The notes under the pieces are model-generated. The model saw only the letters and a list, made by a program, of their open reading frames with translations. It was not told the DNA's origin and made no database searches. Both the position numbers and the translations under genes were made by a program. Shown piece by piece: positions 8,866-28,310 of a DNA stretch of 55,660 bases. The stretch covers positions 1-55,660 of the forward strand of contig NZ_MXAV01000010.1 of the NCBI RefSeq assembly GCF_002847505.1, read 5' to 3'. Position 1 is the first letter of the stretch; each line of letters opens with the position of its first letter. Source of the stretch: Acidithiobacillus marinus (GTDB taxonomy: Bacteria > Pseudomonadota > Gammaproteobacteria > Acidithiobacillales > Acidithiobacillaceae).

Positions 8866-8970
8866 TTGGAGATGCATGGTCTATACTTGCAGAAATGTTG
8901 CGAGATAGTTACATTGCCGCGATGCAACGGGTCACTACAGGCACCCGGACAAATAGAACAAGGAGTTTGG

Positions 8971-9003
8971 ATGTCACCGGACAGGACCGCTGCATGTCGG
9001 TAG
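8971..9003 (+). other. Possible 10-codon leader ORF before squalene synthase
   Basis: ATG at 8971 lies 5 bases after AAGGAG (8960-8965), the best ribosome-binding site in this gap. It opens a frame of only ten codons (MSPDRTAACR) whose stop overlaps the squalene synthase ATG at 8994 by ten bases in another frame. This arrangement would allow translational coupling. It may equally be chance. Confidence 0.25.
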
Positions 9004-10034
9004 CCCTCGATCAGGCCTTGGCCTGGCAGCAACAACACCTGCAGCTTGTTTCGCGTACTTTTGCGTTGACCATTCCGCAGTTGCCGGAAGCCTTGCGGGC
9101 GACCGTGGGTAATGGGTATCTGCTTTGCCGTATTGCTGACACCATCGAAGATGATCCCGTCATGCTCTGGAAAGAAAAAGCCCACTGGCAGGAGATATTC
9201 CTGCAAGTCGTGGAAGGGCGGACAGTCCCCGCTGTTTTTGCCGAAGGCTTTGCAGCGGCAATGTCCGGGGAAATGCCTGCTGCCGAGCTGGATCTGGTGC
9301 GTCATACGGCCGACGTGGTGCAAATTACCCACAGTTTCAGTCCTGCTGAGCAGGCCGCCCTGGCGCGCTGTGTGCGGATCATGGGGGCAGGCATGGCCGA
9401 GTTCCAGCAGCATGCTTCCCGGCAGGGACTGGCGGATATTCCGGCCCTGGATCGCTACTGTTATGTGGTGGCGGGGGTAGTTGGTGAAATGCTGACCAGT
9501 CTCTTTGTGGAATACGAACCCCGTTTGCGTTCCCGGGAAGCGGAAATGCAGAAACTGGCTGTATCTTTTGGCCAGGGTTTGCAGATGACCAACATTCTCA
9601 AGGATATCTGGGATGACTGGGCTCGCGGCGTAAGCTGGATGCCCGCCAGCCTCTTTGCCCGGTACGGTTGCGATATTGCCAGCCTGCAGCCGGGCAGCCA
9701 GGATCCTGGCTTTCAAGAGGGACTGGAAATCTTGCTGGATATAGCGGCCAAACATCTGGAAAACGCGCTGCACTATACCCTGATGATTCCGGCAGCGCAG
9801 ACTGGCATGCGCGATTTTTGTCTTTGGGCGCTGGCTATGGCGGTGTTGACCTTGCGACGTATTGCCGAAAATCCGACTTTTGCCGCCGGGGCTGAGGTCA
9901 AAATCAGCCGCAACAGCGTACAGTGGGTCGTGCTCCTGTCCAAGCTCATGCACCGCTCGGATGCCCTGTTGCTGGCCAGTTTTCGGGCGGCGATCAAACC
10001 CCTGCGGTGCGCGCCGCTGGCTGCACAGGCATGA
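8994..10034 (+). CDS. Squalene synthase (squalene/phytoene synthase family)
   Basis: A 346-residue enzyme that condenses two farnesyl diphosphates, probably to squalene, the substrate of the next gene's cyclase. First Asp-rich motif: LLCRIADTIEDDP (Asp49-Asp54); second: LQMTNILKDIWDDW. SRTFALTIPQLP and YCYVVAGVVGEMLTSLF resemble the eukaryote-type squalene synthases more than the HpnC/HpnD pair. No HpnC, HpnD or HpnE homologue is seen, so this single enzyme probably does the whole conversion. ATG 8994 is chosen because upstream in-frame starts (8895, 8924) add residues unlike the family. It overlaps the cyclase gene by ATGA. Confidence 0.85.
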   Translation: MSVALDQALAWQQQHLQLVSRTFALTIPQLPEALRATVGNGYLLCRIADTIEDDPVMLWKEKAHWQEIFLQVVEGRTVPAVFAEGFAAAMSGEMPAAELDLVRHTADVVQITHSFSPAEQAALARCVRIMGAGMAEFQQHASRQGLADIPALDRYCYVVAGVVGEMLTSLFVEYEPRLRSREAEMQKLAVSFGQGLQMTNILKDIWDDWARGVSWMPASLFARYGCDIASLQPGSQDPGFQEGLEILLDIAAKHLENALHYTLMIPAAQTGMRDFCLWALAMAVLTLRRIAENPTFAAGAEVKISRNSVQWVVLLSKLMHRSDALLLASFRAAIKPLRCAPLAAQA

Positions 10035-11992
10035 ATCGCTTGTTGCAACCAATGCCTTTGGCCGGCGAGATGCTGCGTACATTTCGGACGCAAAGCCGCG
10101 AACAGACCCCCGCCGATGCCTTGGAGACTGCGCGGCGCTTGCTGCTTGAAAAGCAGGCGTCTGACGGACATTGGTGTTTTGAATTTGAAGCCGACTGCAC
10201 CATTCCTGCGGAATACATTCTGATGCAGCATTACATGGATGAGCGGGATCCGGCCCTGGAGGCCAAAATTGCCGTGTATTTGCGCAGTAAACAGGCGGAT
10301 CATGGCGGTTGGCCGCTGTATTACGGCGGGCATTTTGATCTGAGTGCTTCGGTGAAAGCCTACTATGCCCTGAAACTAGCGGGTGATGCCCCGGATCTGC
10401 CCCATATGCGCCGAGCCCGAGAGGCGATTCTCGCCCACGGCGGTGCCGAACACGCCAACGTGTTCACCCGGATTACCCTGGCCCTTTTTGCCCAGGTGCC
10501 GTGGCGGGCGGTGCCTTCCATCCCGGTGGAGATCATGCTCCTGCCGCGCTGGTTTCCCTTTCATATTTACAAAGTGGCGTCCTGGTCGCGGACCGTCATG
10601 GTACCGCTGTTTATTTTGTGCAGTCTCAAGGCCCAGGCCAAAAACCCTCTGAAAGTGCATATTCGTGAGTTGTTTCGTCGGCCACCCGAACAAATTCAGG
10701 ATTATTTTGCCTGTGCCCGTCAGGGGCTGGTAGCCCGGAGTTTTCTGGCCCTGGATCGTTTCTGGGAGGTGATCGAAAAGGGCATTCCCGCTGCGCTGCG
10801 CCGGATTGCCGTACGTCGGGCCGAGCAGTGGTTTACGGCGCGTATCAACGGAGAAGACGGTTTGAACGGGATTTTCCCGGCCATGGTCAATGCCCATGAG
10901 GCCCTGGAGCTGCTGGGTTATGCCCCGGAACATCCCTATCGTCAGGCAACCGCTGCGGCATTGCATAAACTGGTGGTGGAGCGAGCCGATGATGCTTACT
11001 GCCAGCCCTGCATGTCTCCGGTCTGGGATACTTGTCTGGCCCTCCATGCGCTGATCGAGGCTGATGGCCCCGAGAATCTGGGAGATGCGGCAGAAAAAGC
11101 CATTGCCTGGTTGAAGGCGCGGCAGATTCGTCAGGAGCCGGGAGACTGGCAGGTGCAGCGCCCCCATCTGGCGGGAGGCGGCTGGGCTTTTCAGTATGCC
11201 AACCCTTACTATCCTGACCTGGACGATACTGCAGCAGTGGCTTGGGCGCTGGCGCGGGCCGGACGCCCGGAGGATCAGGAGAGTATCGAAACAGCCGCCA
11301 ACTGGCTGGCGGGAATGCAGTCCCGCAATGGTGGGTTTGGTGCTTATGATGTGGATAATACCCATTATTATCTGAATGAAATTCCCTTTGCCGATCATAA
11401 GGCGCTGCTGGATCCTCCGACTGCGGATGTGACCGGCAGGGTCGTGGCCTTTCTCGGTTATCTGGGCCGGGCCCGGGATCGAGATGTGCTGCGCCGGGCG
11501 GTTGCCTATCTGCTCCGCGAACAGGAATCTTCCGGAGCCTGGTTTGGTCGCTGGGGCACCAATTATATTTACGGTACCTGGTCGGTGCTGATGGCGCTGG
11601 GAGAATTGCAGGATCCTTCCCTGCAACCGGCCATGGATCGGGCCGCCGACTGGCTGCGGGCCATGCAGCAGGCCGATGGTGGCTGGGGAGAAAACAACGA
11701 TTCCTACGCAGAACCCGGGCTGGCCGGTGCAGGACAGGATTCCACGGCCGCCCAGACCGCCTGGGCCTGTCTGGGCCTGATGGCGGCCGGTGATAAGGGC
11801 TCCAGGGCGCTGCGGCGCGGAATTCACTGGCTGGAGACTCATCAGGATAGCCATTCGGGCTGGCAGGATCCTTTTTTCAATGCCCCGGGATTCCCCAAGG
11901 TGTTCTATCTCATTTACCACGGTTACAGCGTGTATTTTCCCCTCTGGGCTCTGGCCCGATTCCGGAATCTGGGATGTCAGCCCCACGGATAG
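10031..11992 (+). CDS. shc: Squalene-hopene cyclase
   Basis: A 653-residue monotopic membrane enzyme (HpnF) that cyclises squalene to hopene and hopanol. The catalytic DXDDTA motif is PDLDDTAAVAW, near residue 396. Several QW repeats are visible, for example QADHGGWPLYY, MQSRNGGFGAYD, QESSGAWFGRWG and MQQADGGWGEN. A non-polar channel helix with VPWRAVPSIPVEIML fits the family. ATG 10031 overlaps the stop of the squalene synthase gene (ATGA), and the protein then has normal family length; longer in-frame starts lie inside the upstream gene. Confidence 0.96.
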   Translation: MNRLLQPMPLAGEMLRTFRTQSREQTPADALETARRLLLEKQASDGHWCFEFEADCTIPAEYILMQHYMDERDPALEAKIAVYLRSKQADHGGWPLYYGGHFDLSASVKAYYALKLAGDAPDLPHMRRAREAILAHGGAEHANVFTRITLALFAQVPWRAVPSIPVEIMLLPRWFPFHIYKVASWSRTVMVPLFILCSLKAQAKNPLKVHIRELFRRPPEQIQDYFACARQGLVARSFLALDRFWEVIEKGIPAALRRIAVRRAEQWFTARINGEDGLNGIFPAMVNAHEALELLGYAPEHPYRQATAAALHKLVVERADDAYCQPCMSPVWDTCLALHALIEADGPENLGDAAEKAIAWLKARQIRQEPGDWQVQRPHLAGGGWAFQYANPYYPDLDDTAAVAWALARAGRPEDQESIETAANWLAGMQSRNGGFGAYDVDNTHYYLNEIPFADHKALLDPPTADVTGRVVAFLGYLGRARDRDVLRRAVAYLLREQESSGAWFGRWGTNYIYGTWSVLMALGELQDPSLQPAMDRAADWLRAMQQADGGWGENNDSYAEPGLAGAGQDSTAAQTAWACLGLMAAGDKGSRALRRGIHWLETHQDSHSGWQDPFFNAPGFPKVFYLIYHGYSVYFPLWALARFRNLGCQPHG

Positions 11993-12681
11993 GTGTAGTG
12001 GTGGCCCTGGATGCCGAAGCCCAGACCCTTCATTCCGGCACCTTAAGCCATCAACGGATGATTGCGGTCAGTGATCAACTCAGCATGGTGATTTCGGGCA
12101 TGGGGCCTTTAGCTGCCAAGCAGGCCGCTGAACAATTACTGCAGTCTGGTGTTGCCGCTTTGCTCTCCTGGGGAACCGCCGGCGGGCTGAATCCGGATTG
12201 TCAGGCCGGAGATCTGCTGGTGCCGGAACAGGTGGTCTGGAATGGACGCCACTGGCCGGTGGACCCGGCCTGGCGTATGACCCTCTTGCACCAGCTTTCT
12301 TCCCGGGTGCCGGGTGGTGACCTGTGTTCCGTAAGTTTGCCCTGTGCTTCCATTGCCGCCAAGGCCCAACTTCGGGCAGAACATCCTGATGCCCAGGCAG
12401 TAGATATGGAGAGCGGGGCGGTAGCGGAGTGCTCTACCCGGGCAGGTCTGCCCTTTCTGGTAGTGCGCAGTGTGGTGGACCCTGCCAGCCAGGCGCTGCC
12501 AGCCACTGCCACCCGTAGTGTCGATGCCTATGGCCGGCCGCGCTGGCTGCCCTTGTTGGGGGGGCTGCTGCATCATCCCGGTGACCTGCCAGCCCTCATG
12601 GGGCTGGGCCGACAAATGCAGGCGGCCTTGCAGGGTTTGCGTCGGGTCCAGCCTTATCTCGAAACAGCGAGGCCGTCATGA
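11974..12681 (+). CDS. hpnG: Hopanoid-associated nucleoside phosphorylase HpnG
   Basis: A 235-residue enzyme of the purine nucleoside phosphorylase fold. In the known pathway HpnG removes adenine from adenosylhopane (made by HpnH) to give ribosylhopane. Visible: IGVVVALDAEAQTL, VISGMGPLAAKQAAEQLL, LLSWGTAGGLNP, and the substrate-binding VDMESGAVAECSTRAGLPF followed by VVRSVVDPA. It overlaps the cyclase gene by 19 bp and hpnA by 4 bp, so it is tightly coupled in the hopanoid operon. Confidence 0.9.
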   Translation: MSAPRIGVVVALDAEAQTLHSGTLSHQRMIAVSDQLSMVISGMGPLAAKQAAEQLLQSGVAALLSWGTAGGLNPDCQAGDLLVPEQVVWNGRHWPVDPAWRMTLLHQLSSRVPGGDLCSVSLPCASIAAKAQLRAEHPDAQAVDMESGAVAECSTRAGLPFLVVRSVVDPASQALPATATRSVDAYGRPRWLPLLGGLLHHPGDLPALMGLGRQMQAALQGLRRVQPYLETARPS

Positions 12682-13667
12682 AAGCCCTGCTGACCGGTGC
12701 ATCGGGTTTTGTGGGGGGGGCGGTACTCCGGCGTCTGCTCGCCGAAGGTCTGGAGGTCCGGGTCTTGTATCGTCCGGGGGCTGACAGCAGCAACTGGGAA
12801 GGGTTGGAGGTGGAGCCGTTTCCGGGGGATCTGGCGGATGGCCGGGCTCTGGATAAAGCCGTTGCCGGTTGCTCTCTGGTGTTTCATGTGGCCGCCGATT
12901 ATCGCCTGTGGGTACCCGATCCCCAATCCATGTACGCCGCTAATGTAGAAGGGAGCGAACGGCTGGCCCGGGCGGCCCTGGATGCGGGGGTGGAGCGCTT
13001 CATTTATACCAGCAGCGTGGCAGTACTCGGGCATTATACGGATGGCCGGGTGGCTGATGAAGCTGCCCCTTCCACGCTGGAGGACATGATCGGGCATTAC
13101 AAACGCTCCAAATTTCTGGCAGAGGAGGCGCTGCACAAACTCTGTCAGCATGAGGCCGCGCCGATTGTGATCGTCAATCCTTCCACACCCATTGGGCCTG
13201 CGGATCGCAAACCCACCCCGACCGGGCGCCTGGTGCGGGATGCCGCAGCTGGGAAAATGCCCGCTTATGTGGATACGGGCCTGAATGTGGTGCATGTGGA
13301 TGATGTGGCCATGGGACACTGGCAGGCTTTTCTGCATGGTGAGCCGGGGCAACGCTATATTCTCGGCGGCGACAATCTTTCCTTGCAGGCCATTCTGACC
13401 CGCATTGCCGGTCTTACCGGCAAACGTTCGCCGCTGCTGCGCATTCCGCGCAAGATGCTTTATCCTCTGGCCTGGACCGCCGAGAGTGTGGTGCGCCTGC
13501 AAGGGCGGGGGACGCCCCTGGTGACCCTGGATGAGCTGCGCATGGCCGCCCATAAAATGTATTTTTCCTCGCAGAAAGCTGAGGAGCAGCTGCATTATGT
13601 GCATCGTCCGGCCGAAGAAGCCTTGCGCGATGCGGTGAAATGGTTTGCCGAACATCATTATTTGTGA
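12678..13667 (+). CDS. hpnA: Hopanoid-associated sugar epimerase/dehydrogenase HpnA
   Basis: A 329-residue extended short-chain dehydrogenase. The NAD(P)-binding motif is LLTGASGFVGGAVLRRLL at the N-terminus, with FHVAADYRLWVPD, the YTSSVAVLG strand and catalytic Tyr-x3-Lys in HYKRSKFLAEE. VNPSTPIGPADRKPTPTG is typical of HpnA. Its reaction is not established; roles in side-chain sugar modification have been suggested. It overlaps hpnG by ATGA and is 2 bp before hpnI. Confidence 0.9.
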   Translation: MKALLTGASGFVGGAVLRRLLAEGLEVRVLYRPGADSSNWEGLEVEPFPGDLADGRALDKAVAGCSLVFHVAADYRLWVPDPQSMYAANVEGSERLARAALDAGVERFIYTSSVAVLGHYTDGRVADEAAPSTLEDMIGHYKRSKFLAEEALHKLCQHEAAPIVIVNPSTPIGPADRKPTPTGRLVRDAAAGKMPAYVDTGLNVVHVDDVAMGHWQAFLHGEPGQRYILGGDNLSLQAILTRIAGLTGKRSPLLRIPRKMLYPLAWTAESVVRLQGRGTPLVTLDELRMAAHKMYFSSQKAEEQLHYVHRPAEEALRDAVKWFAEHHYL

Positions 13668-13669
13668 TC

Positions 13670-14842
13670 ATGATGGATGAGATTCTGCAGGGACTGTTGT
13701 TCTTGCTGGCCATGGCGGCCCTGGGTTATCAGCTTCTCGCCATGTGGGTGCTGCGGGCCTGGCGGCCGGTGCTGACCGAGGCAGATGGTGTTTCCCTGCT
13801 TGCTGCCGATGAAACATTACCCGCCCTGAGCCTGCTCAAGCCCTTGCATGGCGATGATGGGCATTTGTATGCCTGCCTGCGCAGCTTTTGTCTGCAGGAT
13901 TATCCCTGCTATGAAATTGTTGCCGGGGTGCAGGATGCCGACGATGCGGCCATTGCCGTAGTGCAGCGCCTCCAACGAGAGTTTCCTGAGTTGGATCTGC
14001 GTTGGGTGCTGACAGAAGAAAAAACGGGGCGTAATCCCAAGGTCAACAATCTCACGGGTATTCTCGGCGCCTGTAAGTATGATCTGCTGCTGATCAGTGA
14101 TGCCGACATTGTGGTCGGACCCCATTATCTGCGCCAGCTGCTGCCGCAGTTGGCGGACCCGCACACGGGGGTGCTGACCTGCCTGTATCGGGGACTGGCC
14201 GAAGCGAACCTCGCTTCCCGGTTGCTGGCCAGTCAGATCAACAGTCTTTTTTTACCCTCGGTGCTGGTTTCGACCCGGCTGGGGCCCAATATTTTCTGTG
14301 GAGGCGCAACCATGGCCTTGCAGCGCTCTACCCTGCAGGCGCTTGGCGGATTGCAAAGGCTGGCCGATCAACTGGCTGATGATTACTGGCTGGGTGCCCA
14401 TGCCCGCCAGCTGGGTAAAGCTACGATCCTTGCCGATTATGTGGTGGATACCCGAGTGCAGGAAGCCAACTTTCGAGTATTTTATCAACATGCCTTACGT
14501 TGGGCGCGCACGACCCACAGCGTGCAGCCGATGGGCTACCGTTTGGCTTTTTTTAGTTATCCTTTGCCGCTGGTGACGCTGCTGACCCCCTGGCTCCTGC
14601 TGGGGTCGGGATGGGGAGGGATCATACCGCTGGGTATGGTCCTCTTGTTGCGCCTCGTGTACCATAGGCAAATTATGCACAAACTCAGTGCAACAGATAC
14701 TTGGGTAATAGCTCTGCTGGCAGATTTTGTGGGGCTGTGGATTTGGTTTCATGGACTCTTTGCCCGGCAGGTCGCCTGGCGGGGAGCACAATTTAAGGTC
14801 GGTGCTGACGGACGTCTGGGCGGCCAAGATGGAGCAAGATAA
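13670..14842 (+). CDS. hpnI: Hopanoid glycosyltransferase HpnI
   Basis: A 390-residue membrane-bound GT2 enzyme. It has an N-terminal helix (LQGLLFLLAMAALGYQLLAM), a GT-A domain with LSLLKPLHGDDGHLYACLRS, LISDADIVVG as metal-binding DxD, and QxxRW-like HALRWARTTHS, then two or three C-terminal helices. In Burkholderia, HpnI adds an N-acetylglucosamine-like sugar to bacteriohopanetetrol, the first step to the cyclitol ether. ATG 13670 (or 13673) directly follows the hpnA stop; the longer in-frame start at 13640 lies inside hpnA. Confidence 0.88.
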   Translation: MMDEILQGLLFLLAMAALGYQLLAMWVLRAWRPVLTEADGVSLLAADETLPALSLLKPLHGDDGHLYACLRSFCLQDYPCYEIVAGVQDADDAAIAVVQRLQREFPELDLRWVLTEEKTGRNPKVNNLTGILGACKYDLLLISDADIVVGPHYLRQLLPQLADPHTGVLTCLYRGLAEANLASRLLASQINSLFLPSVLVSTRLGPNIFCGGATMALQRSTLQALGGLQRLADQLADDYWLGAHARQLGKATILADYVVDTRVQEANFRVFYQHALRWARTTHSVQPMGYRLAFFSYPLPLVTLLTPWLLLGSGWGGIIPLGMVLLLRLVYHRQIMHKLSATDTWVIALLADFVGLWIWFHGLFARQVAWRGAQFKVGADGRLGGQDGAR

Positions 14843-16272
14843 TGACGATGAAAACCCTTTTCCTGCAGGCACCTTCTTTTGAAGGCTTTGACGGTGGTGC
14901 TGGTTCCCGTTATCAGGCCAAACGGGAAATTCGTTCTTTCTGGTTTCCCACCTGGCTGGCCCAGCCGGCCGCGATGATTCCCGGCAGTCGTCTGCTCGAT
15001 GCCCCGCCGGCTGATGTGAGTGTGGAAGAAACCCTGGAAGTGGCCGCTGCCTATGAATTGTGCATCATTCATACCAGTACGCCTTCCTTTTCTTCGGATG
15101 TGCGCATGGCGGAATTGCTCAAGGAGCATTATCCGAAAATGATGATCGGGATGGTTGGTGCCAAGGTCGCCGTCGAACCCGAGGAGTCCCTGCGCGATGC
15201 TGGCCATGCCGTGGACTTTGTGGCCCGTGAAGAATTTGACTACACCCTCAAGGAAATTGCCGAAGGCCGTCCCCTGAGTGAGGTGGATGGTATCAACTAT
15301 CGCGCTGAGGACGGGCAACTGATCCATAACCCCGACCGGGCTATGATTGAAGACATGGATGCCCTGCCTTTTGTGTCGGAAGTGTACAAGCGCGATCTGC
15401 ATATTGAAGATTATTTCATCGGCTACCTCAAGCACCCTTATATTTCCTTTTATACGGGTCGGGGATGTCGTTCCCAGTGTACCTTCTGCCTCTGGCCCCA
15501 GACTGTTGGCGGGCATCGTTACCGGACCCGCAGTGCTGCCAATGTCGTTGAAGAAGTGCGCTACATTCAGAAAAACTTTCCCCAGGTCAAGGAAATTTTC
15601 TTTGACGATGATACCTTTACGGATGATCGTCCACGCGCGGAGGAAATCGCCCGGGGTCTGGGCCAACTGGGGGTGACTTGGTCCTGCAATGCCAAGGCCA
15701 ATGTCCCCTATGAAACCCTCAAGGTATTGCGGGAAAACGGTCTGCGTTTGTTGCTGGTGGGTTATGAATCCGGTGACCAGCAGATTCTCAATAATATCAA
15801 AAAGGGCATCAAGGTGGAGGCAGCACGTAAATTTACGGCGGACTGCCACAAACTGGGTATTGTCATTCACGGCACCTTCATTCTCGGCCTGCCCGGAGAA
15901 ACCAAGGAAACCATTCAAAAAACCATCGAATTTGCCAAGGAAATCAATCCGCATACCATACAGGTGTCGCTGGCAGCCCCTTATCCCGGGACCTTTTTGT
16001 ACAATCAGGCCAAGGAGCAGGGCTGGCTGACCGAGGAAGATGAATCCCATCTGGTCAATGACCGGGGGGTGCAGATCAGCCCGATGAGTTATCCGCACCT
16101 GAATCACACGGAAATATTTGATTCCGTAGAAACCATGTACAAACGTTTCTACTTCCGTGCCGGGAAAATTGCTGAAATCACAGGTGAAATGCTGAAAAGC
16201 ACACAGATGATGAAGCGACGTTTGCGGGAGGGCGTTGAGTTTGTGCGCTTCCTGCGGCAGCGCCACGGCTGA
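14842..16272 (+). CDS. hpnJ: Hopanoid B12-binding radical SAM protein HpnJ
   Basis: A 476-residue enzyme with an N-terminal cobalamin-binding-like domain and a radical SAM core. The [4Fe-4S] cysteines are in GRGCRSQCTFC (Cys209, Cys213, Cys216). Other family blocks are FFDDDTFTDDRPRAEEIA and LVGYESGDQQILNNIKKG. HpnJ is proposed to contract the hexosamine ring to the cyclitol of bacteriohopane cyclitol ether, after HpnI and HpnK have acted. It starts within the hpnI stop (TAATG) and is followed almost without gap by hpnK. Confidence 0.92.
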   Translation: MTMKTLFLQAPSFEGFDGGAGSRYQAKREIRSFWFPTWLAQPAAMIPGSRLLDAPPADVSVEETLEVAAAYELCIIHTSTPSFSSDVRMAELLKEHYPKMMIGMVGAKVAVEPEESLRDAGHAVDFVAREEFDYTLKEIAEGRPLSEVDGINYRAEDGQLIHNPDRAMIEDMDALPFVSEVYKRDLHIEDYFIGYLKHPYISFYTGRGCRSQCTFCLWPQTVGGHRYRTRSAANVVEEVRYIQKNFPQVKEIFFDDDTFTDDRPRAEEIARGLGQLGVTWSCNAKANVPYETLKVLRENGLRLLLVGYESGDQQILNNIKKGIKVEAARKFTADCHKLGIVIHGTFILGLPGETKETIQKTIEFAKEINPHTIQVSLAAPYPGTFLYNQAKEQGWLTEEDESHLVNDRGVQISPMSYPHLNHTEIFDSVETMYKRFYFRAGKIAEITGEMLKSTQMMKRRLREGVEFVRFLRQRHG

Positions 16273-16273
16273 A

Positions 16274-17149
16274 GTGGGGCAGGCACCCACTCGGCGATTG
16301 ATTCTCAACGCCGACGACTTTGGTCTGGATCTGGCGGTCAATGCGGCGGTGGAATCAGCATACCAGCGAGGTGTGCTGACCACCGCCAGTCTTATGGTAG
16401 CGGCCCCTGCGGCGGCAGATGCCATTCAGCGGGCTAAAAAGCTTCCCGGCTTGGGCGTGGGCTTGCACCTGACTCTGGTGGATGGCACTCCGCTGTTGCC
16501 AGCGGAGCAGGTTCCAGATCTGGTGGATAGCAGCGGGCGTTTTGCGGCTGATTTATGGTTGCGTGGAGTACGCTATTTTTTTCTGCCCAAGGTGCGTCGC
16601 CAACTGGCCGCAGAAATTCGCGCCCAGTTTGCGGCCTTTGCCGACTCAGGCCTGGTTCTGGATCATGCCAATGCACACAAGCATCTGCATTTGCATCCCA
16701 CCGTGTTGAGCCTGATGTTGGACATTGGCAGAGATTTTGCCCTGCGAGCGGTGCGGCTACCCTGGGAATCCCTGACACTGGCCAGATGTGGCGGGGCACA
16801 GGGTTTTGCCCCGGCCTTCTGGGCTTTTTTTTTGCGCCCCTGGCTGGCCAGAATGCGCAGGCAGCTGGAAAATCGGGGGCTGCTTTATAATGACTTACTT
16901 TGTGGCCTGGATGCCACAGGGCATATGACCGAGCTGCGTTTGTTGCAATTGCTGAAATGCTTGCCCCGGCAAGGTTTGATCGAAATCTATTTTCATCCGG
17001 CGACGACACAAAGTCCGCTCCTGAAAAAGTTGATGCCGGACTATGAGCCTCAGGCAGAATATGCGGCATTATTGAGCCCCTTGGTTGGGGAGTATTTGCG
17101 TGAGCAGCAGATTATGAGAGGTCGATTCCGTGATTTTATCAGCGGCTGA
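16274..17149 (+). CDS. hpnK: Hopanoid-associated deacetylase HpnK (YdjC-like)
   Basis: A 291-residue metal-dependent carbohydrate deacetylase. The family signatures are RLILNADDFGLDLAVN at the N-terminus, GVGLHLTLVDGTPLLP and VLDHANAHKHLHLHP, with Asp and His metal ligands. It should remove the acetyl group from the sugar added by HpnI before HpnJ acts. The GTG at 16274, one base after the hpnJ stop, is my preferred start since it leaves only a few residues before the conserved strand; a TTG at 16235 inside hpnJ would add 13. It overlaps hpnN by 20 bp. Confidence 0.87.
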   Translation: MGQAPTRRLILNADDFGLDLAVNAAVESAYQRGVLTTASLMVAAPAAADAIQRAKKLPGLGVGLHLTLVDGTPLLPAEQVPDLVDSSGRFAADLWLRGVRYFFLPKVRRQLAAEIRAQFAAFADSGLVLDHANAHKHLHLHPTVLSLMLDIGRDFALRAVRLPWESLTLARCGGAQGFAPAFWAFFLRPWLARMRRQLENRGLLYNDLLCGLDATGHMTELRLLQLLKCLPRQGLIEIYFHPATTQSPLLKKLMPDYEPQAEYAALLSPLVGEYLREQQIMRGRFRDFISG

Positions 17150-19835
17150 ACGTTTCCTGGAACGCATGGGCCAAGGTATTGCCTATTTCATGGTTCAGGT
17201 GGTGGATTTTTCTGTGCGGCGCGCCATTTGGGTGATTGGAACCCTGCTGCTCCTTACCCTGTTGGCATTGTTTTACGCATTTACGCATTTTTCGGTAGAT
17301 ACCAACACCAGTAATGCCTTGTCCCGGGACCTTCCTTTTCAGAAGCGAGAAGTCGCTTACCATAAGGTGTTTTCCCAGGATCAACATACCATTGTGGTGG
17401 TACTGCAAGGGAAAAATCCCCAGAGTACGGCGGAGGCGGTCAAACGTCTGGAAGACTGGGTGCGGGCCCATCCCCAACATTTCCACAGTGTGTACGTGCC
17501 TGGTGGAGGCAGTTTTTTTGAGCGGAATGGGTTGCTGTATTTGTCGCCAGCACAGGTGCAGGCATTTGCCAATCGGATCACCAACGCCCAGCCCCTTATC
17601 GCGCGGCTGTCTGCTGATCCCAGTCTTGGTGGTTTGAGTGACCTGTTAAATCTGGCTATCAGTCAAAGGTTAAGTAACGGCGTGCAGTTGCCGGGAATGA
17701 CCGCTATTTTCACGGCCCTGGATGAGGCAGTGACAGCGCAACTGGAAGGCAAGCCATATCAGCTTTCCTGGAGCAAAATGATGGGTGGGAGTCTGGCCAA
17801 ACTTGGTCCTGCCCAACGTTTTGTCATTATTCAACCGGTCATGAATTTCCAGTCCTTGCAGCCAGCAGGCGCGGGGATTCATGCTTTGCGCGCGGGCTTA
17901 CAAAGTCTGCAGCTCAATGCCGCCCATGGTCTGAGTGTCGGGATAACCGGTGGTGCGGTACTGGATGCCGAACAGCTGAAAACGGTGAGTCAGGGGGCCG
18001 GATTCTCTCTGGCTTTGACCCTTGGTCTCGAAATCATCCTGCTCAGTATTGCCCTGCGCTCGGTCAAGCTGGTGTCAGGTGTGCTCATTGGGCTCGTATC
18101 CGGCATTATTTTGACGGCTGCCTGGGCCCTGTTTTTTATCGGTCCGTTCAATCTTATTTCTGTGGCCTTTGCCATTTTGTTTATTGGACTCGGCGTGGAT
18201 TTTGGCATTCAGTTTTGTCTACGCTATCGGGAAGAAATGTTTAACGGAGCCGTACATCGGGTGGCCATGCAAAGGGTCACCCAGGGAATGGGCGCGGCAT
18301 TGGGGCTGGCCGCCGTGGCGGCGGCGCTCAGCTTTTACGCCTTTGTGCCCACCAGCTATGCCGGCATTGTTGATCTGGGTCTGATTTCCGGCACCAGCAT
18401 GCTTATTGCCCTGTTACTCACCCTGACTTTTCTGCCAGCCTACCTGACCCTGTGGCCGATTGCTGTCCAGGGTTCAAAGAATACTGCCTATTATCCGCAT
18501 TTTCGGGTAATTCCAACCTTGGCGAAGCATCCAATTCATCGCTATGCCTACTGGATTCTGGGGTTGGTCACGTTGTTGGCATTGGGGGCGATTCCTCTGG
18601 CCATGCATGCCACTTTTGACTTCAATCCCTTGCACATGATTGATCAGCATGCCGAAGGGGTGAAGGTTTTTGAGAAGCTGCTGGCCAATCCGGATACGGC
18701 GCCTTACCGGATGGAAGTGCTGGCTCCTGATCTGGATGCCGCTCAGGCTGTGGCGCATCGTGTCAAACAGTTGCCAACGGTTGCCCGGGCGCTGACGGTG
18801 CAAAGCTATATCCCCAGCAAGCAAAAAGAAAAGCTGGCCATTTTACAGAATTTGCAAATTGTGGTGCCCCCCTTTTCGCTGATGATGCCGACCTCACTCA
18901 AGCCACCAGCGGCTGACACAGGCAAAAAACTCGAAAAGCTGGTTAAGGAATTACGTTCTCTGGCCAATAAAGATGGTCACGATTCTGCGCACGGTAAGGT
19001 GGCTACGCAACTGGCCGATCATTTGCAGCAGTTTTTGCGCCAGGAAGGCGGTCATCCCCACGCTATCGATGCGCTGCAAAACAGCGTGATGGGCACTTTA
19101 CCCGGCGAGCTGAAGGAGCTGGGAATGGCCTTGATGGCGGGACCGGTTACTTTGAAAACCTTGCCGGCAGCACTCCGGGAGCGTTATCTGGGTCCTTCCG
19201 GGCAGGCCAGGGTGGAAATTTTCCCCAAGGAAGATCTGAGCAGTAATGCGGCCATGTACCGTTTTGTGAAAAGCGTTCTCAAGGTCGAGCCGCAGGCTGT
19301 TGGAACTCCAGTGATGCTGGTTCAAGGGGGCGAGGCGGTACTCGGCGCTTTTCAGGAAGCTACCTATATTGCGCTGGCCAGCATCAGCATTTTGTTGTTA
19401 CTGGCTTTGCGGCGCTACCGCGATGTGCTGCTGATCATGATCCCCCTGTTGCTGGCAGCACTGTTTACCGTGGCGGCCATGAGTCTGCTGGGATTGAGTT
19501 TCAATCTGGGGAATATCATCGTTCTGCCCCTGCTCATCGGCCTGGGTGTGGCATTTGCCATTTATCTTGTGGTGCGCTGGCGCAATGGGGTGGACGTGGC
19601 CCATTTGCTGGGTACTTCAACACCGCTGGCTGTATTTTTCAGCGGACTGACCACCCTCAGCGCTTTTGGCAGCATGGCCATTTCTCGTGATCCGGGCATG
19701 GCCAGTCTTGGAGAGGCCTTAAGCCTGGCTCTGGCCATAGTGCTGTTGTGCATTTTGATCATTTTGCCGACGTTGATGCTGCTCTGTACGCCTTCACCCC
19801 GTGAAGAGGGAATTGAACAGGATGAGGGAAGCTAG
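17130..19835 (+). CDS. hpnN: Hopanoid transporter HpnN (RND family)
   Basis: A 901-residue inner-membrane RND-type protein with about twelve transmembrane helices. The first helix is near residues 32-54, followed by a large periplasmic loop (QDQHTIVVVLQG, SVYVPGGGSFFERNGLLYLS), a helix group from about 285 to 450 with LFIGLGVDFGIQFCLRYREE, a second periplasmic loop, and a final group with PLLIGLGVAFAIYLVVRWRN. HpnN carries hopanoids from inner to outer membrane in Rhodopseudomonas. The start is GTG at 17130 with AGAGG upstream. It is followed after 3 bp by hpnL. Confidence 0.92.
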   Translation: MILSAAERFLERMGQGIAYFMVQVVDFSVRRAIWVIGTLLLLTLLALFYAFTHFSVDTNTSNALSRDLPFQKREVAYHKVFSQDQHTIVVVLQGKNPQSTAEAVKRLEDWVRAHPQHFHSVYVPGGGSFFERNGLLYLSPAQVQAFANRITNAQPLIARLSADPSLGGLSDLLNLAISQRLSNGVQLPGMTAIFTALDEAVTAQLEGKPYQLSWSKMMGGSLAKLGPAQRFVIIQPVMNFQSLQPAGAGIHALRAGLQSLQLNAAHGLSVGITGGAVLDAEQLKTVSQGAGFSLALTLGLEIILLSIALRSVKLVSGVLIGLVSGIILTAAWALFFIGPFNLISVAFAILFIGLGVDFGIQFCLRYREEMFNGAVHRVAMQRVTQGMGAALGLAAVAAALSFYAFVPTSYAGIVDLGLISGTSMLIALLLTLTFLPAYLTLWPIAVQGSKNTAYYPHFRVIPTLAKHPIHRYAYWILGLVTLLALGAIPLAMHATFDFNPLHMIDQHAEGVKVFEKLLANPDTAPYRMEVLAPDLDAAQAVAHRVKQLPTVARALTVQSYIPSKQKEKLAILQNLQIVVPPFSLMMPTSLKPPAADTGKKLEKLVKELRSLANKDGHDSAHGKVATQLADHLQQFLRQEGGHPHAIDALQNSVMGTLPGELKELGMALMAGPVTLKTLPAALRERYLGPSGQARVEIFPKEDLSSNAAMYRFVKSVLKVEPQAVGTPVMLVQGGEAVLGAFQEATYIALASISILLLLALRRYRDVLLIMIPLLLAALFTVAAMSLLGLSFNLGNIIVLPLLIGLGVAFAIYLVVRWRNGVDVAHLLGTSTPLAVFFSGLTTLSAFGSMAISRDPGMASLGEALSLALAIVLLCILIILPTLMLLCTPSPREEGIEQDEGS

Positions 19836-19838
19836 GCC

Positions 19839-20852
19839 GTGAGGCAGATGGCTTTTATTTTGCTCTCAGGGGTATTGGGGCTGGCTCTCGCTGTATATCT
19901 GGTGCTCCATGCTGGCCTGATAGGGATCATGGCCTTGCTGGCTGTCGCTGGCTGGAGCTTGCTGTGGCTTGTACCCTTTCATTTGCTGCCCTTGGCACTG
20001 GATACCTTGAGCTGGAAATGGCTGCTCAGTAGCGAGTCCCGTGCCCGCTTTGGATTGCTGCTCTGGGTAGCATTAGTGCGTGAATCGGTGAATAGTCTGC
20101 TCCCCGTAGCCCGTGTCGGTGGTGAACTGCTGGGTATTCGTCTGCTTGCGCAACATGGGCTCTCTCCTTACGTGGCGGGTGCCAGTATCATGGTAGAGGT
20201 CACTCTGACCCTGTTGAGTCAGGTGCTGTTTACCTTGCTGGGCATCGTCGTCTTGATGGTTGCACTCACTAATCACTTGCTAGTTCTGGAGGTTTTGGGG
20301 GTATTGTTTCTGTCATTACCGGTGTTAGGTGTTTTTTACTGGTTACAAAAGCACAAGGGACTGTTCTGCTTGTTGCAGTTGATCGGAAAAAAACTACTGG
20401 GTGGCTATGATCTGTTGGGGAATATAACTGATCCGACATTGCTGGATGCTGAGATCCGGACCTTGTATGGCAGGGGATGGTCGCTGCTCGTGGCCAATTT
20501 CTGGCAACTGTCGAGTTTTCTGGCAGGAACCGCAGAGGTGTGGGTGACTTTCCAGTTGCTCCATCATCCCATCCCTTTCTGGGCAGCCTTGCTGCTGGAA
20601 AGTCTGGGACAGGCCTTGCGCAGTGCCGCTTTTTTGGTTCCTGGAGGCATAGGCGTTCAGGAAGGTGGGTTCGTCCTGCTAGGCAGCTTCATGGGCATCG
20701 GGCCGGACCTGGCCCTGGCCTACGCCTTGGCGCGGCGCTTGCGGGAACTGTTCCTGGGTATTCCGGTGCTCTTGTCATGGTCCATATCAGAGGGTCATTA
20801 TATGCGCCGGCGATGGTTGAGAATTCCAAGTGGTGAAGAGGGGGTTTCATGA
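19839..20852 (+). CDS. hpnL: Hopanoid-associated membrane protein HpnL
   Basis: A 337-residue polytopic inner-membrane protein of the lysylphosphatidylglycerol-synthase TM-region family (UPF0104-like). It has about eight hydrophobic segments, with the conserved blocks [17 protein letters not shown] and [20 protein letters not shown] before EGGFVLLG. HpnL is repeatedly found in hopanoid clusters and has no proven activity; a flippase or lipid-handling role is possible. The start is GTG at 19839; it overlaps the next gene by ATGA. Confidence 0.87.
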
Positions 20853-21691
20853 CGGCAGCAGCCTTAGAACTGGGTTCTGAGCAACATCGAGATTTGTTTT
20901 GTCAGTTCATGCATGACACGCATGTGCATTTTGATCCTAAAAACATGCCCTGGCCTGAACTGGATGCGGCTGCGGAACAGCGGGTCAAGTCCTTGCCTTT
21001 CTGGGGCGAGGCGGTGGCAACGGAAAGTGTGACTGCGCGTATGGTCCAGAGTATGGCCGAGCGGGAACCGGACCCGGTGGTGCGCGCTGCGGTGGCTCTG
21101 GATGGTCGTGAGGAGCAGCGCCATTCGGAACTGCTCCAGGCGTTGGTATCCCATTATAATATCCAGATTCCACCTTCCCCGCCGCCGCCGCCCCTGCGGG
21201 ATCCCTATTGGGAGTTTTTATACACGGGTTACGGGGAATGTCTGGACTCTTATTTTGCTTTTGGGTTGTTTGCCGCTGCGAAAAAATCCGGGTTTTTCCC
21301 TCCGGATTTGGTCGATATATTTGAGCCAGTGATGCAGGAAGAAGCCCGACATATTATTTTTTTCATCAACTGGTTGAAATGGCATCGCCGGCGCCTGCCC
21401 TTCTGGAAAAAAATCGTGCTGGAATATCAGCGTATTCAGGTAATTGCCATGCAAGCCTGGGCGCGTATTCAGACGGCTCGGGGGCTGAATGATCATCAGG
21501 AAGAAAATTTTACCATGACCGGTCATGAGCAGGTCAGCAGCGATATCAATCTGACCCAGTTACTGGCTTTGTGCCGGGCCGAAAATGAGCGGCGCTTTGC
21601 CGCTTATGATGCCCGTCTATTACGACCGAAGCTGGCGCCAAGGCTTGCCAATTTCCTGTTTTTCTTTCTTTCGCGCGGGAAAACCGCCTAA
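20849..21691 (+). CDS. Ferritin-like di-iron protein in the hopanoid operon, function unknown
   Basis: A 280-residue protein, apparently soluble, with a possible membrane-touching C-terminus ([10 protein letters not shown]). It carries the full four-helix di-iron signature: Glu59 ([10 protein letters not shown]), Glu89-x-x-His92 (EEQRH), Glu130 ([12 protein letters not shown]) and Glu165-x-x-His168 (EEARHIIFF). A proline run lies at 108-115. The arrangement is that of ferritin-like oxidases, hydroxylases or rubrerythrin relatives. It overlaps hpnL by 4 bp, so it is part of the operon. A role in oxidative modification of hopanoids or their side chain is inference; oxidative-stress protection is an alternative. 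It matches none of the standard Hpn proteins that I know. Confidence 0.75.
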
Positions 21692-21703
21692 TTTCTGTTG
21701 CGC

Positions 21704-21734
21704 TTGTCCCACATACGCTTTGGTATGTTATACT
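21704..21734 (+). promoter_or_regulatory. Candidate extended -10 promoter before hpnH
   Basis: TGTTATACT at 21726-21734 matches an extended -10 (TGnTATAAT-like). TTGTCC at 21704-21709 is a -35 candidate with a long 19-bp spacer. It lies in the only gap above 100 bp between the squalene synthase gene and gatB and would give hpnH-hpnM-mlaA-gatCAB their own transcript. Confidence 0.42.
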
Positions 21735-21797
21735 TGATGGAATTATGCGGTTTGTTGTTCACCAGTTTTAGGGCCGTCAGGCGGGGGTGTTAATATT

Positions 21798-22901
21798 ATG
21801 GGTGTTCCTTTGATTCAGAGCTATAAGGTCGGTCGCTACATCATTTCGCAAAAATTGCGGGGGCGTAAGCGTTACCCTTTGGTGCTGATGCTGGAGCCGC
21901 TGTTCCGTTGCAATCTGGCTTGTGCCGGTTGTGGAAAAATTGATTATCCGGATGATGTACTTGATAAGCGCCTGTCTGTGGAAGAATGCATTGGTGCTGC
22001 CGAAGAGTGTGGTGCGCCCATTATTTCCATTGCGGGTGGTGAGCCTCTGATTCACAAGGATATGCCGGAAGTCGTCAAAGGCCTGGTCGAACGTAAGCGC
22101 TTTGTTTACCTGTGTACCAATGCGCTGCTCCTGAAAAAGCGTATGGATGACTATGCACCGTCACCGTATCTGACCTTTTCCGTGCATCTGGATGGCAATG
22201 AACACCGGCATGATGATTCTGTGTGTCAGCCGGGTACCTACAAGCGTGCGGCGGCAGCTATCCAGGAAGCCGTTGAAAAGGGGTTTCGGGTGACGGTGAA
22301 CTGCACGCTGTTTCAGGGCGAAGGTGCGGAAGAAGTGGCCAACTTTTTGGACGATTGCAAGGCGCTCGGTGTAGAGGGGGTGACCATTTCTCCCGGATTC
22401 AACTATGAGCGCGCCCCTCAGCAGGAAGTGTTCATTCAACGCCGGGCCTCCCGGCAATTGTTCCGGGATATTTTCCGGATCGGCAAGGAACGCAAGGCCA
22501 AATGGACATTTAATCAGTCCAGTTTGTTCCTGGATTTTCTGGCCGGTAATCAGAACTATCAATGTACGCCTTGGGGGAATCCTACCCGCAATATTTTTGG
22601 TTGGCAGAAACCCTGTTATCTGCTGGTCAGTGAAGGGTATGCCCAAACTTATAAGGAAATGATGGAGACAACGCCCTGGGATCAGTACGGCGTGGGCGTG
22701 AACCGTAAGTGCGATCAGTGCCAGGTACATTCGGGTTTTGAGCCGACGGCGGTCAATGATACTTTTGCCCATCCATTGCGTGCTCTGAAAGTGGCTTTGC
22801 GCGGACCGCGTACGGAAGGACCGATGGCCCCGGATATGCCGACCATGCCACCCTCTCAAGGACCCAATCATCCGGTATTTCCGTTGCGGGTGGAACGATA
22901 A
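21798..22901 (+). CDS. hpnH: Hopanoid radical SAM enzyme HpnH (adenosylhopane synthase)
   Basis: A 367-residue cytosolic radical SAM enzyme that joins the 5'-deoxyadenosyl radical to diploptene, forming adenosylhopane, the first C35 hopanoid. The cluster cysteines are Cys38, Cys42 and Cys45 in RCNLACAGCGKI. Typical blocks are ISIAGGEPLIHKDMPEVV, YLCTNALLLKKRMDD, FSVHLDGNEHRHD and the C-terminal CTPWGNPTRNIFGWQKPCYL. It is separated from the preceding di-iron gene by 106 bp holding a promoter candidate. Confidence 0.95.
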   Translation: MGVPLIQSYKVGRYIISQKLRGRKRYPLVLMLEPLFRCNLACAGCGKIDYPDDVLDKRLSVEECIGAAEECGAPIISIAGGEPLIHKDMPEVVKGLVERKRFVYLCTNALLLKKRMDDYAPSPYLTFSVHLDGNEHRHDDSVCQPGTYKRAAAAIQEAVEKGFRVTVNCTLFQGEGAEEVANFLDDCKALGVEGVTISPGFNYERAPQQEVFIQRRASRQLFRDIFRIGKERKAKWTFNQSSLFLDFLAGNQNYQCTPWGNPTRNIFGWQKPCYLLVSEGYAQTYKEMMETTPWDQYGVGVNRKCDQCQVHSGFEPTAVNDTFAHPLRALKVALRGPRTEGPMAPDMPTMPPSQGPNHPVFPLRVER

Positions 22902-22949: not shown

Positions 22950-23606
22950 ATGTTCTTGAAAAAAAATGTGCTGCTTACCGCCGTTTTCGCCATGTCGATG
23001 GCTCCATTGTTGCCTGCCTGGGCAGGCACAGCGGCCGAGACTGCGCCCCATACTGCAGCAGTAAAGGCGATGACACCTCAAGCTACCATTGATTCCTTGG
23101 ACGCTGCTTTGCTCAAGGCGATGCATGGCGGAAGTAAAATTGGCTATCATGGCCGCTATGCCATCATTTCTCCGGTGGTTCGTCAGGTCTATGATTTCAC
23201 AAGAATTGCGCATCTGACCTTGGGAGACACTTGGACCAAACTGAGTTCGGCGCAGCAGAAAGCTTTTGTGGAGGTGCTGGCAGATTATACGGCGGCTACC
23301 TATGCAGCCCGTTTCAATAATTATGCCGGGGAGCATTTTGCGGTAGTGAGCAGCCAAAATATGCAGCCTGGCACCGAAGGGGTATTTAGCACGCTCACCA
23401 TGCACAATGGCAAGGTCCATCGCTTTGACTATTTGTTGCAGCAGCAGGATGGGCATTGGCGTATTGTCAATGTTGTGGCAGATGGCGTCAGTGATCTCTC
23501 CCTGAAGCGGGCAGAATATACAGAAACCATCAAAAGTAAGGGGTTTGCAGCTTTGGTAGCCCATTTGAAAGCGCAAATTGCCGGCTACGCTAACGGTAGG
23601 TCCTGA
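22950..23606 (+). CDS. hpnM: Periplasmic lipid-binding protein HpnM (MlaC/Ttg2D family)
   Basis: A 218-residue periplasmic protein with a signal peptide (MFLKKNVLLTAVFAMSMAPL, cleavage after AWA near residue 25). The mature part follows the MlaC family: YDFTRIAHLTLGDTWTKLS, FVEVLADYTAATYAARF, and a nuclear-transport-factor-like core with YLLQQQDGHWRIVNVVADGV. MlaC proteins shuttle phospholipids between the membranes; the version in hopanoid clusters is called HpnM. It has a strong Shine-Dalgarno and overlaps mlaA by one base (TGATG). Confidence 0.88.
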   Translation: MFLKKNVLLTAVFAMSMAPLLPAWAGTAAETAPHTAAVKAMTPQATIDSLDAALLKAMHGGSKIGYHGRYAIISPVVRQVYDFTRIAHLTLGDTWTKLSSAQQKAFVEVLADYTAATYAARFNNYAGEHFAVVSSQNMQPGTEGVFSTLTMHNGKVHRFDYLLQQQDGHWRIVNVVADGVSDLSLKRAEYTETIKSKGFAALVAHLKAQIAGYANGRS

Positions 23607-24415
23607 TGAGTCACCGGGGCTTTCTGCTGGGCACTGCTTTTGCCGCTGGGGTGTTGGCGATATCGGGTTGTGCCACCGTGCATGGTCCGGGTTCCGCAGC
23701 GTCGACGCCGAGTCGGCCCCCGCTGCAGGCCTTCAATCATACCATGTTCCACTTGAACATGGGTCTTTATGATTATGTGCTGGAGCCCGTTTCCACAGGC
23801 TACAAGGCGGTCACCCCGGGATTTGTACGCACGGGTGTCAGTAATGTATTTTCCAATGTCGGCATGCCCTATATTTTTATTAATGACTTCCTGCAAGGGC
23901 GGGTTCAGCAGGGCATGGAGGATATGAGCCGTTTTCTGGTGAACTCCGTGTTTGGTCTGGGTGGCTTGTTTGATGTGGCCGACAAGCTGGATCTCCCTAC
24001 GCACGATAACAGTCTGGGAGTAACGCTAGGCGTGTGGGGCGTGCCCCAGGGTCCCTATCTGGTATTGCCCTTTTATGGCCCCAGCTCCTTACGCAGCCTG
24101 CCCGGTCTCGCTATGGTCATGTTTACCGGACCCGCTTACTATGTCACCAGCACGCCGGCCAAATATGCACTGTCTGGTATGGGTATTATTAATACTGGCT
24201 ACGTGGATGGACCAAAAATTCGCATGGTTCAGGAAGCCGTTAATCCGTATCAGTTCATGCGCAATGCCTGGGAGCAGCATGAACAGTATCTGATCAGTGG
24301 TGGAATGGTGAGTAAAAGTCAGTTGCTGGAAGGCTTGTCCCTGCCTCCGGCGGCTTCTCCCGAAACTCCGTCTGCTGCGACTGAATCTTCACCCCAGAAG
24401 CAAGGGAAGCATTAA
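23606..24415 (+). CDS. mlaA: Outer-membrane lipoprotein MlaA (VacJ)
   Basis: A 269-residue lipoprotein with lipobox LAISGC (Cys22). The VacJ/MlaA core is clear: LQAFNHTMFHLNMGLYDYVL, FVRTGVSNVFSNVGMPYIFI, FLVNSVFGLGGLFDVADKL, SLGVTLGVWGVPQGPYLVLP and GPSSLRSLPGL. MlaA removes or exchanges lipids at the outer membrane and works with MlaC-like proteins. Here its partner is probably HpnM, directly upstream. A Pro/Ser-rich tail closes the protein. Only 2 bp separate it from gatC. Confidence 0.92.
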   Translation: MSHRGFLLGTAFAAGVLAISGCATVHGPGSAASTPSRPPLQAFNHTMFHLNMGLYDYVLEPVSTGYKAVTPGFVRTGVSNVFSNVGMPYIFINDFLQGRVQQGMEDMSRFLVNSVFGLGGLFDVADKLDLPTHDNSLGVTLGVWGVPQGPYLVLPFYGPSSLRSLPGLAMVMFTGPAYYVTSTPAKYALSGMGIINTGYVDGPKIRMVQEAVNPYQFMRNAWEQHEQYLISGGMVSKSQLLEGLSLPPAASPETPSAATESSPQKQGKH

Positions 24416-27705: not shown

Positions 27706-28257
27706 TCAGGAAGCCGGAACCGTAGCTGGCACTTCCTTGACCAGTTTCAGGAATTCAGAAAAAGGTCCCATGTTTTCCATGGCTTCCATTTTCGGACCCT
27801 TGAAGTTGAGACGACCAAACATCATGGCCATCATGGGTGAACCCATGTGATGCCAGTCGTGGGTAGTAGCCCACATTTTGTAATCATAGTTGTAGTTCAG
27901 GTCTGTCACCTTGACGGCTCCGCCATAAATACATTCGGCCTTGCCTTCCTTGGCAGCGATTTCGAGCTGAATGGGAGGGGTGCTTTTCATGCTGGAATCG
28001 GAAACTTCCATGACTTTATAACCCTTGCCACCGTTGTTCTTGACCCAGGATCCGGCCAGCTTTTCTGTCAATGTCGGATTGTTGTTCCAGGCGGTACAAA
28101 GTTCCTTAGCCCAGGCCGGGGACATGAAAGCTGGGGTTGTTGTCGCGCTTGCAGCGCTACTCTCTGTCGCAGCGGTGTTGGAATCTGCAGCCATTGCCAT
28201 TGTTGAACCTGCGAGACCCAGTCCCAGAATAGCCACCATCGTCATTTTTTTAAACAT
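27706..28257 (-). CDS. Secreted SCP2-like lipid/sterol-binding protein
   Basis: A 183-residue protein with a signal peptide (MFKKMTMVAILGLGLAGSTM, cleavage after AMA near residue 23) and an Ala/Ser/Thr-rich linker. The mature part resembles the SCP2 sterol-carrier fold: a middle strand region with GKAECIYGGAVKVTD and the typical end SPMMAMMFGRLNFKGPKMEA before EFLKLVKEVP. Most SCP2 proteins are cytosolic, so a periplasmic one converging on a hopanoid operon suggests a hopanoid carrier; this is inference. ATG 28257 has a very strong Shine-Dalgarno (GGAGGAGAGG). Two cysteines (in KELCTAW and AECIYGG) could form a disulfide. An MlaC- or DUF-type lipid binder is the alternative. Confidence 0.65.
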   Translation of the reverse strand: MFKKMTMVAILGLGLAGSTMAMAADSNTAATESSAASATTTPAFMSPAWAKELCTAWNNNPTLTEKLAGSWVKNNGGKGYKVMEVSDSSMKSTPPIQLEIAAKEGKAECIYGGAVKVTDLNYNYDYKMWATTHDWHHMGSPMMAMMFGRLNFKGPKMEAMENMGPFSEFLKLVKEVPATVPAS

Positions 28258-28310
28258 CGACCTCTCCTCCGCCATATGATTGCAGCGCTCCCAGTGAGCG
28301 TTTCTGGAGT

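Follow-up and report, generated by a model that had tools for sequence, protein, structure and literature searches.

In the R2 proteins of ribonucleotide reductase the metal ligands follow the order E, ExxH, E, ExxH, and the R2-like ligand-binding oxidases (R2lox) are marked by a Mn/Fe cofactor, a bound fatty acid and a Tyr-Val cross-link. Soluble acyl-ACP desaturases are R2-like di-iron enzymes that desaturate unactivated carbons and use this chemistry on fatty acids. R2-like di-iron enzymes often hydroxylate their substrates. The AurF/CmlI-type N-oxygenases and the azoxy synthase VlmB act on amines, not triterpenoids, and the substrate of the tRNA hydroxylase MiaE is a modified tRNA base.

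Hopanoids are sterol-like lipids of bacteria. Bacteriohopanepolyols (BHPs) that are unsaturated (delta-6, delta-11) or extra-hydroxylated have a literature going back decades and serve as biomarkers. According to the available part of a 2025 survey of alphaproteobacteria, neither BHP desaturation nor the formation of bacteriohopanepentols and -hexols has a known gene, and no obvious further candidates turned up near hpn clusters (PMC12583986). Membrane "sterol desaturases" of the fatty acid hydroxylase superfamily have been proposed for the same hopanoid desaturation (PMC12583986, PMC6460317, as far as their available text goes). These proteins, integral to the membrane and with histidine motifs, do not belong to the family described here, and in the available survey text their presence does not match phenotype one to one, Afipia being without the gene (PMC12583986). 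For Acidithiobacillaceae, a figure legend prints the gene order sqs-hpnFGAIJKNL-ferritin-hpnHM (PMC8886135). The "ferritin" has the same position as our gene, and in the available part of that paper it is a label only, without function, family or distribution.

We analysed a window (the whole stretch of DNA studied, 55,660 nucleotides) from Acidithiobacillus marinus that contains a hopanoid operon with a di-iron protein gene; FERR is our shorthand for this gene and its family. The gene order is squalene synthase, Shc, HpnG, HpnA, HpnI, HpnJ, HpnK, HpnN, HpnL, FERR, HpnH, MlaC-type, MlaA (Table 1). NCBIfam models above their cut-offs name Shc and all the Hpn proteins listed, whilst the upstream squalene synthase and the downstream MlaC-type and MlaA genes were identified by Pfam. 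The stop codon of hpnL and the start codon of FERR share the sequence ATGA (20849-20852), and a gap of 106 bp separates FERR from hpnH. The coordinates, this overlap and the flanking HpnL and HpnH models agree with the earlier note, which had described an open reading frame overlapping hpnL by 4 bp and preceding hpnH. A scan for promoters and terminators gave results at chance level. A genome search found a single FERR copy in the source genome. Eleven close relatives in named genomes (71-95% identity) belong to Acidithiobacillus, Igneacidithiobacillus and one MAG named only Proteobacteria, and FERR lies between hpnL and hpnH in 11/11 of their loci. Elsewhere in the window, a 189-aa ORF adjoining gatCAB genes (27706-28275, minus strand) matches nothing in Pfam at E<=0.01.

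Table 1. Hopanoid operon genes and predicted di-iron ligand codons in the window
Feature	Position	Strand	Details
Upstream operon part: squalene synthase, shc, hpnG, hpnA, hpnI, hpnJ, hpnK, hpnN	8895..19835	+	NCBIfam, Pfam
hpnL	19839..20852	+	TIGR03476, 346.7 bits (cut-off 195.65)
FERR, di-iron protein gene	20849..21691	+	280 aa, ATG start
Codon Glu59, predicted ligand	21023..21025	+	Invariant, 96/96 rows
Codons 89-92, first ExxH (Glu89, His92), within EExRH 88-92	21113..21124	+	E88, E89, R91, H92 invariant, 96/96 rows
Codon Glu130, predicted ligand	21236..21238	+	Invariant, 96/96 rows
Codons 165-168, second ExxH (Glu165, His168), within EExRH 164-168	21341..21352	+	E164, E165, R167, H168 invariant, 96/96 rows
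hpnH, adenosylhopane-forming radical SAM gene	21798..22901	+	TIGR03470, 531.9 bits (cut-off 225.05)
MlaC-type gene (hpnM position) and MlaA gene	22950..24415	+	PF05494, PF04333

All six di-iron ligands proposed in the earlier note are at the positions claimed. Predicted ligands Glu59, Glu89, His92, Glu130, Glu165 and His168 are invariant in 12/12 close relatives, in 24/24 diverse relatives and in every row of the full alignment (96 rows, 95 distinct). Their order, E, ExxH, E, ExxH, is that of R2, and both sequence and model thus give the site expected of the R2-like superfamily. The remaining charged residues of the two EExRH motifs (E88, R91, E164, R167) are equally invariant, as are W35, P36, W52, Y103, G127, C131, N174 and R249. 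The C-terminal helix is moderately hydrophobic.

Sequence comparison assigns FERR to no known family, NCBIfam, Pfam and PDB giving nothing above cut-off. An NCBIfam search of the FERR protein returned 0 families, so no Hpn model reaches its curated cut-off, and 24 relatives yielded only one weak EncB_fam match, in one member; the earlier view that this is not one of the usual Hpn proteins is borne out. The AurF family PF11583 matches the FERR protein weakly and in part (20.9 bits against a gathering cut-off of 29.6) and is matched by 5/24 relatives at E<=0.01. At the same threshold the FERR protein matches no ferritin or rubrerythrin family of Pfam, and neither it nor the 24 relatives match the acyl-ACP desaturase family. 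The top match of the family profile among PDB sequences is a MiaE-like chain, 5ux1, but it is weak (E 0.0053); no R2 or R2lox chain is among the PDB matches listed (phmmer E<=10; profile E<=1).

An AlphaFold2 model of the FERR protein (22 alignment rows; mean pLDDT 86.4, pTM 0.85; pLDDT <50 at residues 212-219 and 222-224) is all helical, with ten helices. The ligands sit on four consecutive long helices (51-72, 76-102, 119-147, 152-181). Foldseek against the PDB gave R2 subunits as top matches, the lowest E value being 4.2e-3 and no match reaching 0.001. In VIA-align the top rank goes to 6qrz, one of the R2-like ligand-binding oxidases (Z 15.3, rmsd 3.6 over 211 residues); R2 proteins lie no more than 1 Z below it (Z 14-15 over 211-238 residues) and VlmB reaches Z 14.1. 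Such values are modest and can be common for helical bundles. Acyl-ACP desaturases are absent from the best 50 VIA-align rows, which excludes nothing. The top-ranked R2lox and R2 proteins are thus like FERR in their all-helical fold, as modelled, but they show no kinship to it in the PDB sequence searches and it is FERR that is tied to hopanoid genes. The AurF/CmlI-type enzymes and VlmB share with FERR the partial sequence match and, for VlmB, the fold, but the FERR score lies under the curated cut-off. The earlier description of the protein as ferritin-like holds at superfamily level only; the best-ranked solved folds are of R2 type.

That FERR serves iron storage, or acts as a peroxidase or rubrerythrin-type stress protein, and merely happens to lie in the operon is very improbable. 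The "ferritin" label in the figure legend (PMC8886135, seen in part) would fit such a protein, as would the weak matches of two of the 24 relatives to Ferritin_2 and of two to Rubrerythrin. Against it are the length of 280 aa and the ten helices of the model, compared with a bare four-helix bundle, the R2-type folds at the top of the ranking, and co-inheritance with shc even where FERR is distant from it.

This co-inheritance was assessed in a sample of 398 genomes of the phylum, searched with the FERR family profile and the Shc model. Homologues scattered with no link to hopanoid genes had been named beforehand as the finding that would count against the earlier note, and the distribution is of the opposite kind. 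Strong FERR matches (below 1e-50) occur in 14 genomes from eight families, and shc is present in 14/14, compared with 50/398 genomes overall (47 above cut-off); the association has a Fisher P of 3e-13 without the window's genome, uncorrected for kinship. As 36 of the 50 shc-positive genomes have no strong FERR homologue, the family is confined to some of the hopanoid producers. Within the order of the source genome, FERR is found in 22/31 genomes and shc in 27/30 besides the window's; 21 of the 22 FERR genomes have shc, the exception (G027) being 69% complete. One family, f218, has FERR in 65/130 genomes. Here shc is present in 58/58 FERR-positive genomes tested, the seven left out each being <90% complete, and in 16 of the 20 FERR-negative genomes listed (20 of 65). 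Both outliers with FERR in the class sample, G165 and G185, are shc-positive. In five genomes with weak profile matches (E 2e-4 to 9e-4: G204, G310, G459, G597, G636) no shc was found. Besides its shc and a clade III FERR (clades are described below), G165 encodes a further cyclase of lower similarity at C1:1494686-1496620. It scores 253 bits, below the cut-off for Shc, and is possibly an oxidosqualene cyclase.

Two further groups define the limits of the distribution. In family f216, ten of whose members in the sample have shc, FERR was found in 0/248 genomes; an empty search alone shows little, though the same profile had detected the 14 strong matches in the phylum sample. The order around G165 has FERR in 7/231 genomes and 2/48 genera; of these seven genomes, G165 itself was covered by the shc test.

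The gene neighbourhood points the same way in several lineages. FERR adjoins hpnL in G185, lies between hpnL and hpnK in G600 (beside hpnK/hpnJ), is near hpnA in G670 and stands at both sides of the hpn cluster in G518. In Cupriavidus it precedes a family-2 glycosyltransferase, hpnA and hpnH (4/4 records), and no HpnI, HpnJ or HpnK was seen within the 20 kb read. Five f218 genomes have FERR beside hpnA and hpnL, or near hpnH; these loci (L161-L165) were chosen because shc is nearby, and for f218 only the count of 5/58 given below is unselected. In Caballeronia zhejiangensis p3 (L094:10001-10830) the FERR match is in two pieces, with no annotated CDS, between an hpnL-type gene and hpnJ, and represents either a broken gene or a sequencing frameshift. 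FERR lies away from hpn clusters in 8/8 records of Burkholderia, Paraburkholderia and other Caballeronia, in G165 and in most f218 regions read. Among these neighbours outside hpn clusters Pfam identifies no recurrent redox partner (L050, a 3.5-kb contig, was left out of the assessment). Without selection, FERR is <=20 kb from shc in 3/13 phylum-sample genomes (P 2e-4) and in 5/58 f218 genomes (P 6e-4), draft contigs making both counts lower bounds. That 53/58 f218 genomes have no shc within 20 kb on the same contig, drafts included, would explain why FERR was overlooked earlier. HpnL is the most recurrent neighbour; its function is not established according to the available text of PMC12583986.

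Because the neighbours vary across lineages (HpnL, HpnK, HpnJ, HpnA, HpnH), they indicate no single step. This would suit a hopanoid-linked oxidase with some other product, arising, for example, by oxidation or ketone formation in the side chain or by modification of the glycosyl or cyclitol head group. A 32-oxo intermediate is described as a possible route to pentols in the part of PMC12583986 available, whereas the Cupriavidus clusters, with FERR and no HpnI/J/K within the 20 kb read, speak against a role confined to making the cyclitol ether. We consider a product of this kind improbable, if less so than a stress protein.

A tree of 96 FERR rows shows three groups, clades I, II and III; it is midpoint rooted for drawing only, and several of its deep branches are long. 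It leaves out the two-piece L094 match and 16 other f218 rows whose loci were not retrieved. Clade I (15 rows) holds Acidithiobacillaceae and G185. Clade II (59 rows) holds Burkholderiaceae, f218, G600, G670, one G518 copy and, on deep branches, G401 and G747. Clade III (22 rows) combines f137 (G165 and its kin) with the second copy of f218 and the remaining one of G518. A lower-scoring second FERR copy occurs in 18 of the 65 f218 genomes; 14 of these 18 are in the tree, all in clade III, and the two genes are adjacent in 15/18. In G721 and G1251 a single open frame holds the two domains, one of clade II and one of clade III. The G721 frame (L047:8973-10922) reads as a protein of ~650 aa; the G1251 frame is at C1:2326598-2328292. 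Two equal-scoring copies 13.5 kb apart at locus L150 (G1267:C1:1001000-1020900) suggest a recent duplication. The FERR match of G1361 (C1:1480903-1481751), a 2.0-Mb genome, contains one in-frame TGA and is a possible pseudogene.

We propose that FERR is very probably a dedicated hopanoid oxidase of some kind, an R2-like di-iron oxidase devoted to hopanoid tailoring. The intact di-iron site and the ties of its relatives to hopanoid producers still favour the earlier formulation, in which it may oxidise a hopanoid by hydroxylation, desaturation or some other route. A reduced di-iron centre at the predicted E59/E89/H92/E130/E165/H168 site would activate O2, and the resulting high-valent centre would abstract hydrogen from an unactivated C-H bond of the presumed hopanoid substrate. 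The product would most likely be a ring double bond (delta-6 in clades I and II), leading to unsaturated BHPs. Desaturation of the hopane rings, with delta-6 as first choice, is our tentative preference, held with slightly less than even confidence. It is ranked ahead of side-chain hydroxylation because of the survey data (PMC12583986), the Burkholderia cenocepacia data (PMC8560942) and the chemical precedent of the soluble acyl-ACP desaturases.

The BHP record can be set against this proposal. In the available part of the survey, seven acetic acid bacteria contain 49-82% unsaturated BHPs (PMC12583986, Table 3); f218, which may correspond to acetic acid bacteria, is rich in FERR, frequently with copies from two clades in tandem. 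The unsaturated BHT cyclitol ether made by B. cenocepacia carries a delta-6 annotation owing to earlier B. cepacia work (PMC8560942, in the text available); the clade II FERR encoded in a record of this species agrees with that compound. Other lineages do not seem to match. Afipia broomeae has 43% unsaturated BHPs (PMC12583986, available text), and f216, with no FERR in 248 genomes, is probably the family of Afipia; this weakens FERR as the only delta-6 desaturase. Delta-11 hopanoids occur in Methylovulum and Methylocaldum and unsaturated aminopentol in Methylobacter strains (PMC6460317, available text), yet FERR is rare in the order around G165, which presumably holds these genera; this weakens clade III as a universal delta-11 desaturase. 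In the parts available, none of the Acidithiobacillus BHPs in PMC8886135 is unsaturated, and the Sphingomonadales in PMC12583986 have 0-1% unsaturated BHPs, most of them making none and several making pentols (up to 90%). G600, perhaps Sphingomonas-like on weak grounds, has FERR and counts against a desaturase. In comparisons with named plasmid records the secA of G600 came closest to Sphingomonas (79%), but so did the recA of an f218 genome; for three f218 regions the matches at 95-99% or >=99% identity (11) are as many as the Acetobacter records. Matches to 16S rRNA were obtained in 6/22 and 4/19 genomes, two of the latter being only 35 bases long, and our case does not depend on naming these genomes. 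Methylovulum and Afipia are reported to be unsaturated and seemingly lack FERR; therefore FERR cannot be the only desaturase. If it is one, then either different enzymes must take its role elsewhere or the family must vary in regiochemistry.

The same di-iron chemistry could instead place an extra hydroxyl at C-31 or C-30 of the side chain, as R2-like di-iron enzymes commonly hydroxylate, which would make FERR the hydroxylase for bacteriohopanepentols and -hexols. We regard this as possible though unlikely. The pentol and hexol genes are, in the survey text available, just as unassigned as those for desaturation, and the same seven acetic acid bacteria make both kinds of compound, with 6-50% pentol plus hexol (PMC12583986, Table 3). 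Unsaturation nevertheless exceeds pentols in these strains. B. cenocepacia has a pentol cyclitol ether too, but in the available data the saturated pentol is found in 1/3 strains and the unsaturated compound in 3/3 (PMC8560942). The position of FERR beside hpnK/hpnJ in the perhaps Sphingomonas-like G600 suits a hydroxylase; the methanotrophs do not, since aminopentol is common in them (PMC5100885, available text) and FERR is found in 7/231 genomes of the order around G165.

Returning to ring desaturation, a more specific version would make FERR a family of regiospecific enzymes, with clades I and II acting at delta-6, clade III at delta-11, and the tandem or fused II-III pairs giving delta-6,11 BHPs. 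Such di-unsaturated BHPs are known from some Rhodospirillales. We rate this version as doubtful, and marked it down slightly because the methanotroph result weighs on its delta-11 part. If it is true, a soluble R2-like di-iron family would act on a pentacyclic triterpenoid ring, and other, unrelated desaturases would do so in Afipia and Methylovulum.

FERR is, on this evidence, a good candidate for an enzyme that adds double bonds or hydroxyls to hopanoids, and if this is true O2-dependent hopanoid modification gains a genetic marker. The literature searched, which took in few subscription journals, yielded no title or opening of an abstract with a functional assignment for the family. The gene position was already in print, as "ferritin"; new here is an R2-like di-iron family tied to hopanoids.

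The earlier note had also considered a role in the incompletely assigned steps around ribosylhopane and BHT. We reject a core step from ribosylhopane to BHT because of the 36 shc genomes without a strong homologue and a same-genus operon that lacks exactly FERR; for the same two reasons we take FERR to be an accessory tailoring step, and the data fit a dispensable hopanoid tailoring gene. Six genomes of the genus have shc and no FERR (G004, G005, G011-G014). The G014 operon lies on a single contig and is complete but for FERR, hpnH beginning about 140-150 bp after hpnL; its flanks align to 20590-20806 and 21703-21848 of the window. The contigs of the other five end earlier, so absence there rests on whole-genome searches of drafts, and these FERR-less drafts are 81-100% complete, one being 7% contaminated. 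The operon minus exactly FERR, the tandem and fused paralogues and the same-genus genomes with and without the gene offer natural controls for a single-gene hypothesis. A 32-base block 5' of hpnH (CTTGTCC...TATACT, 21703-21734) recurs unchanged in the G014 operon without FERR (L159), where the flanking DNA is only ~72% identical to that of the window, suggesting a promoter or regulator site for hpnH.
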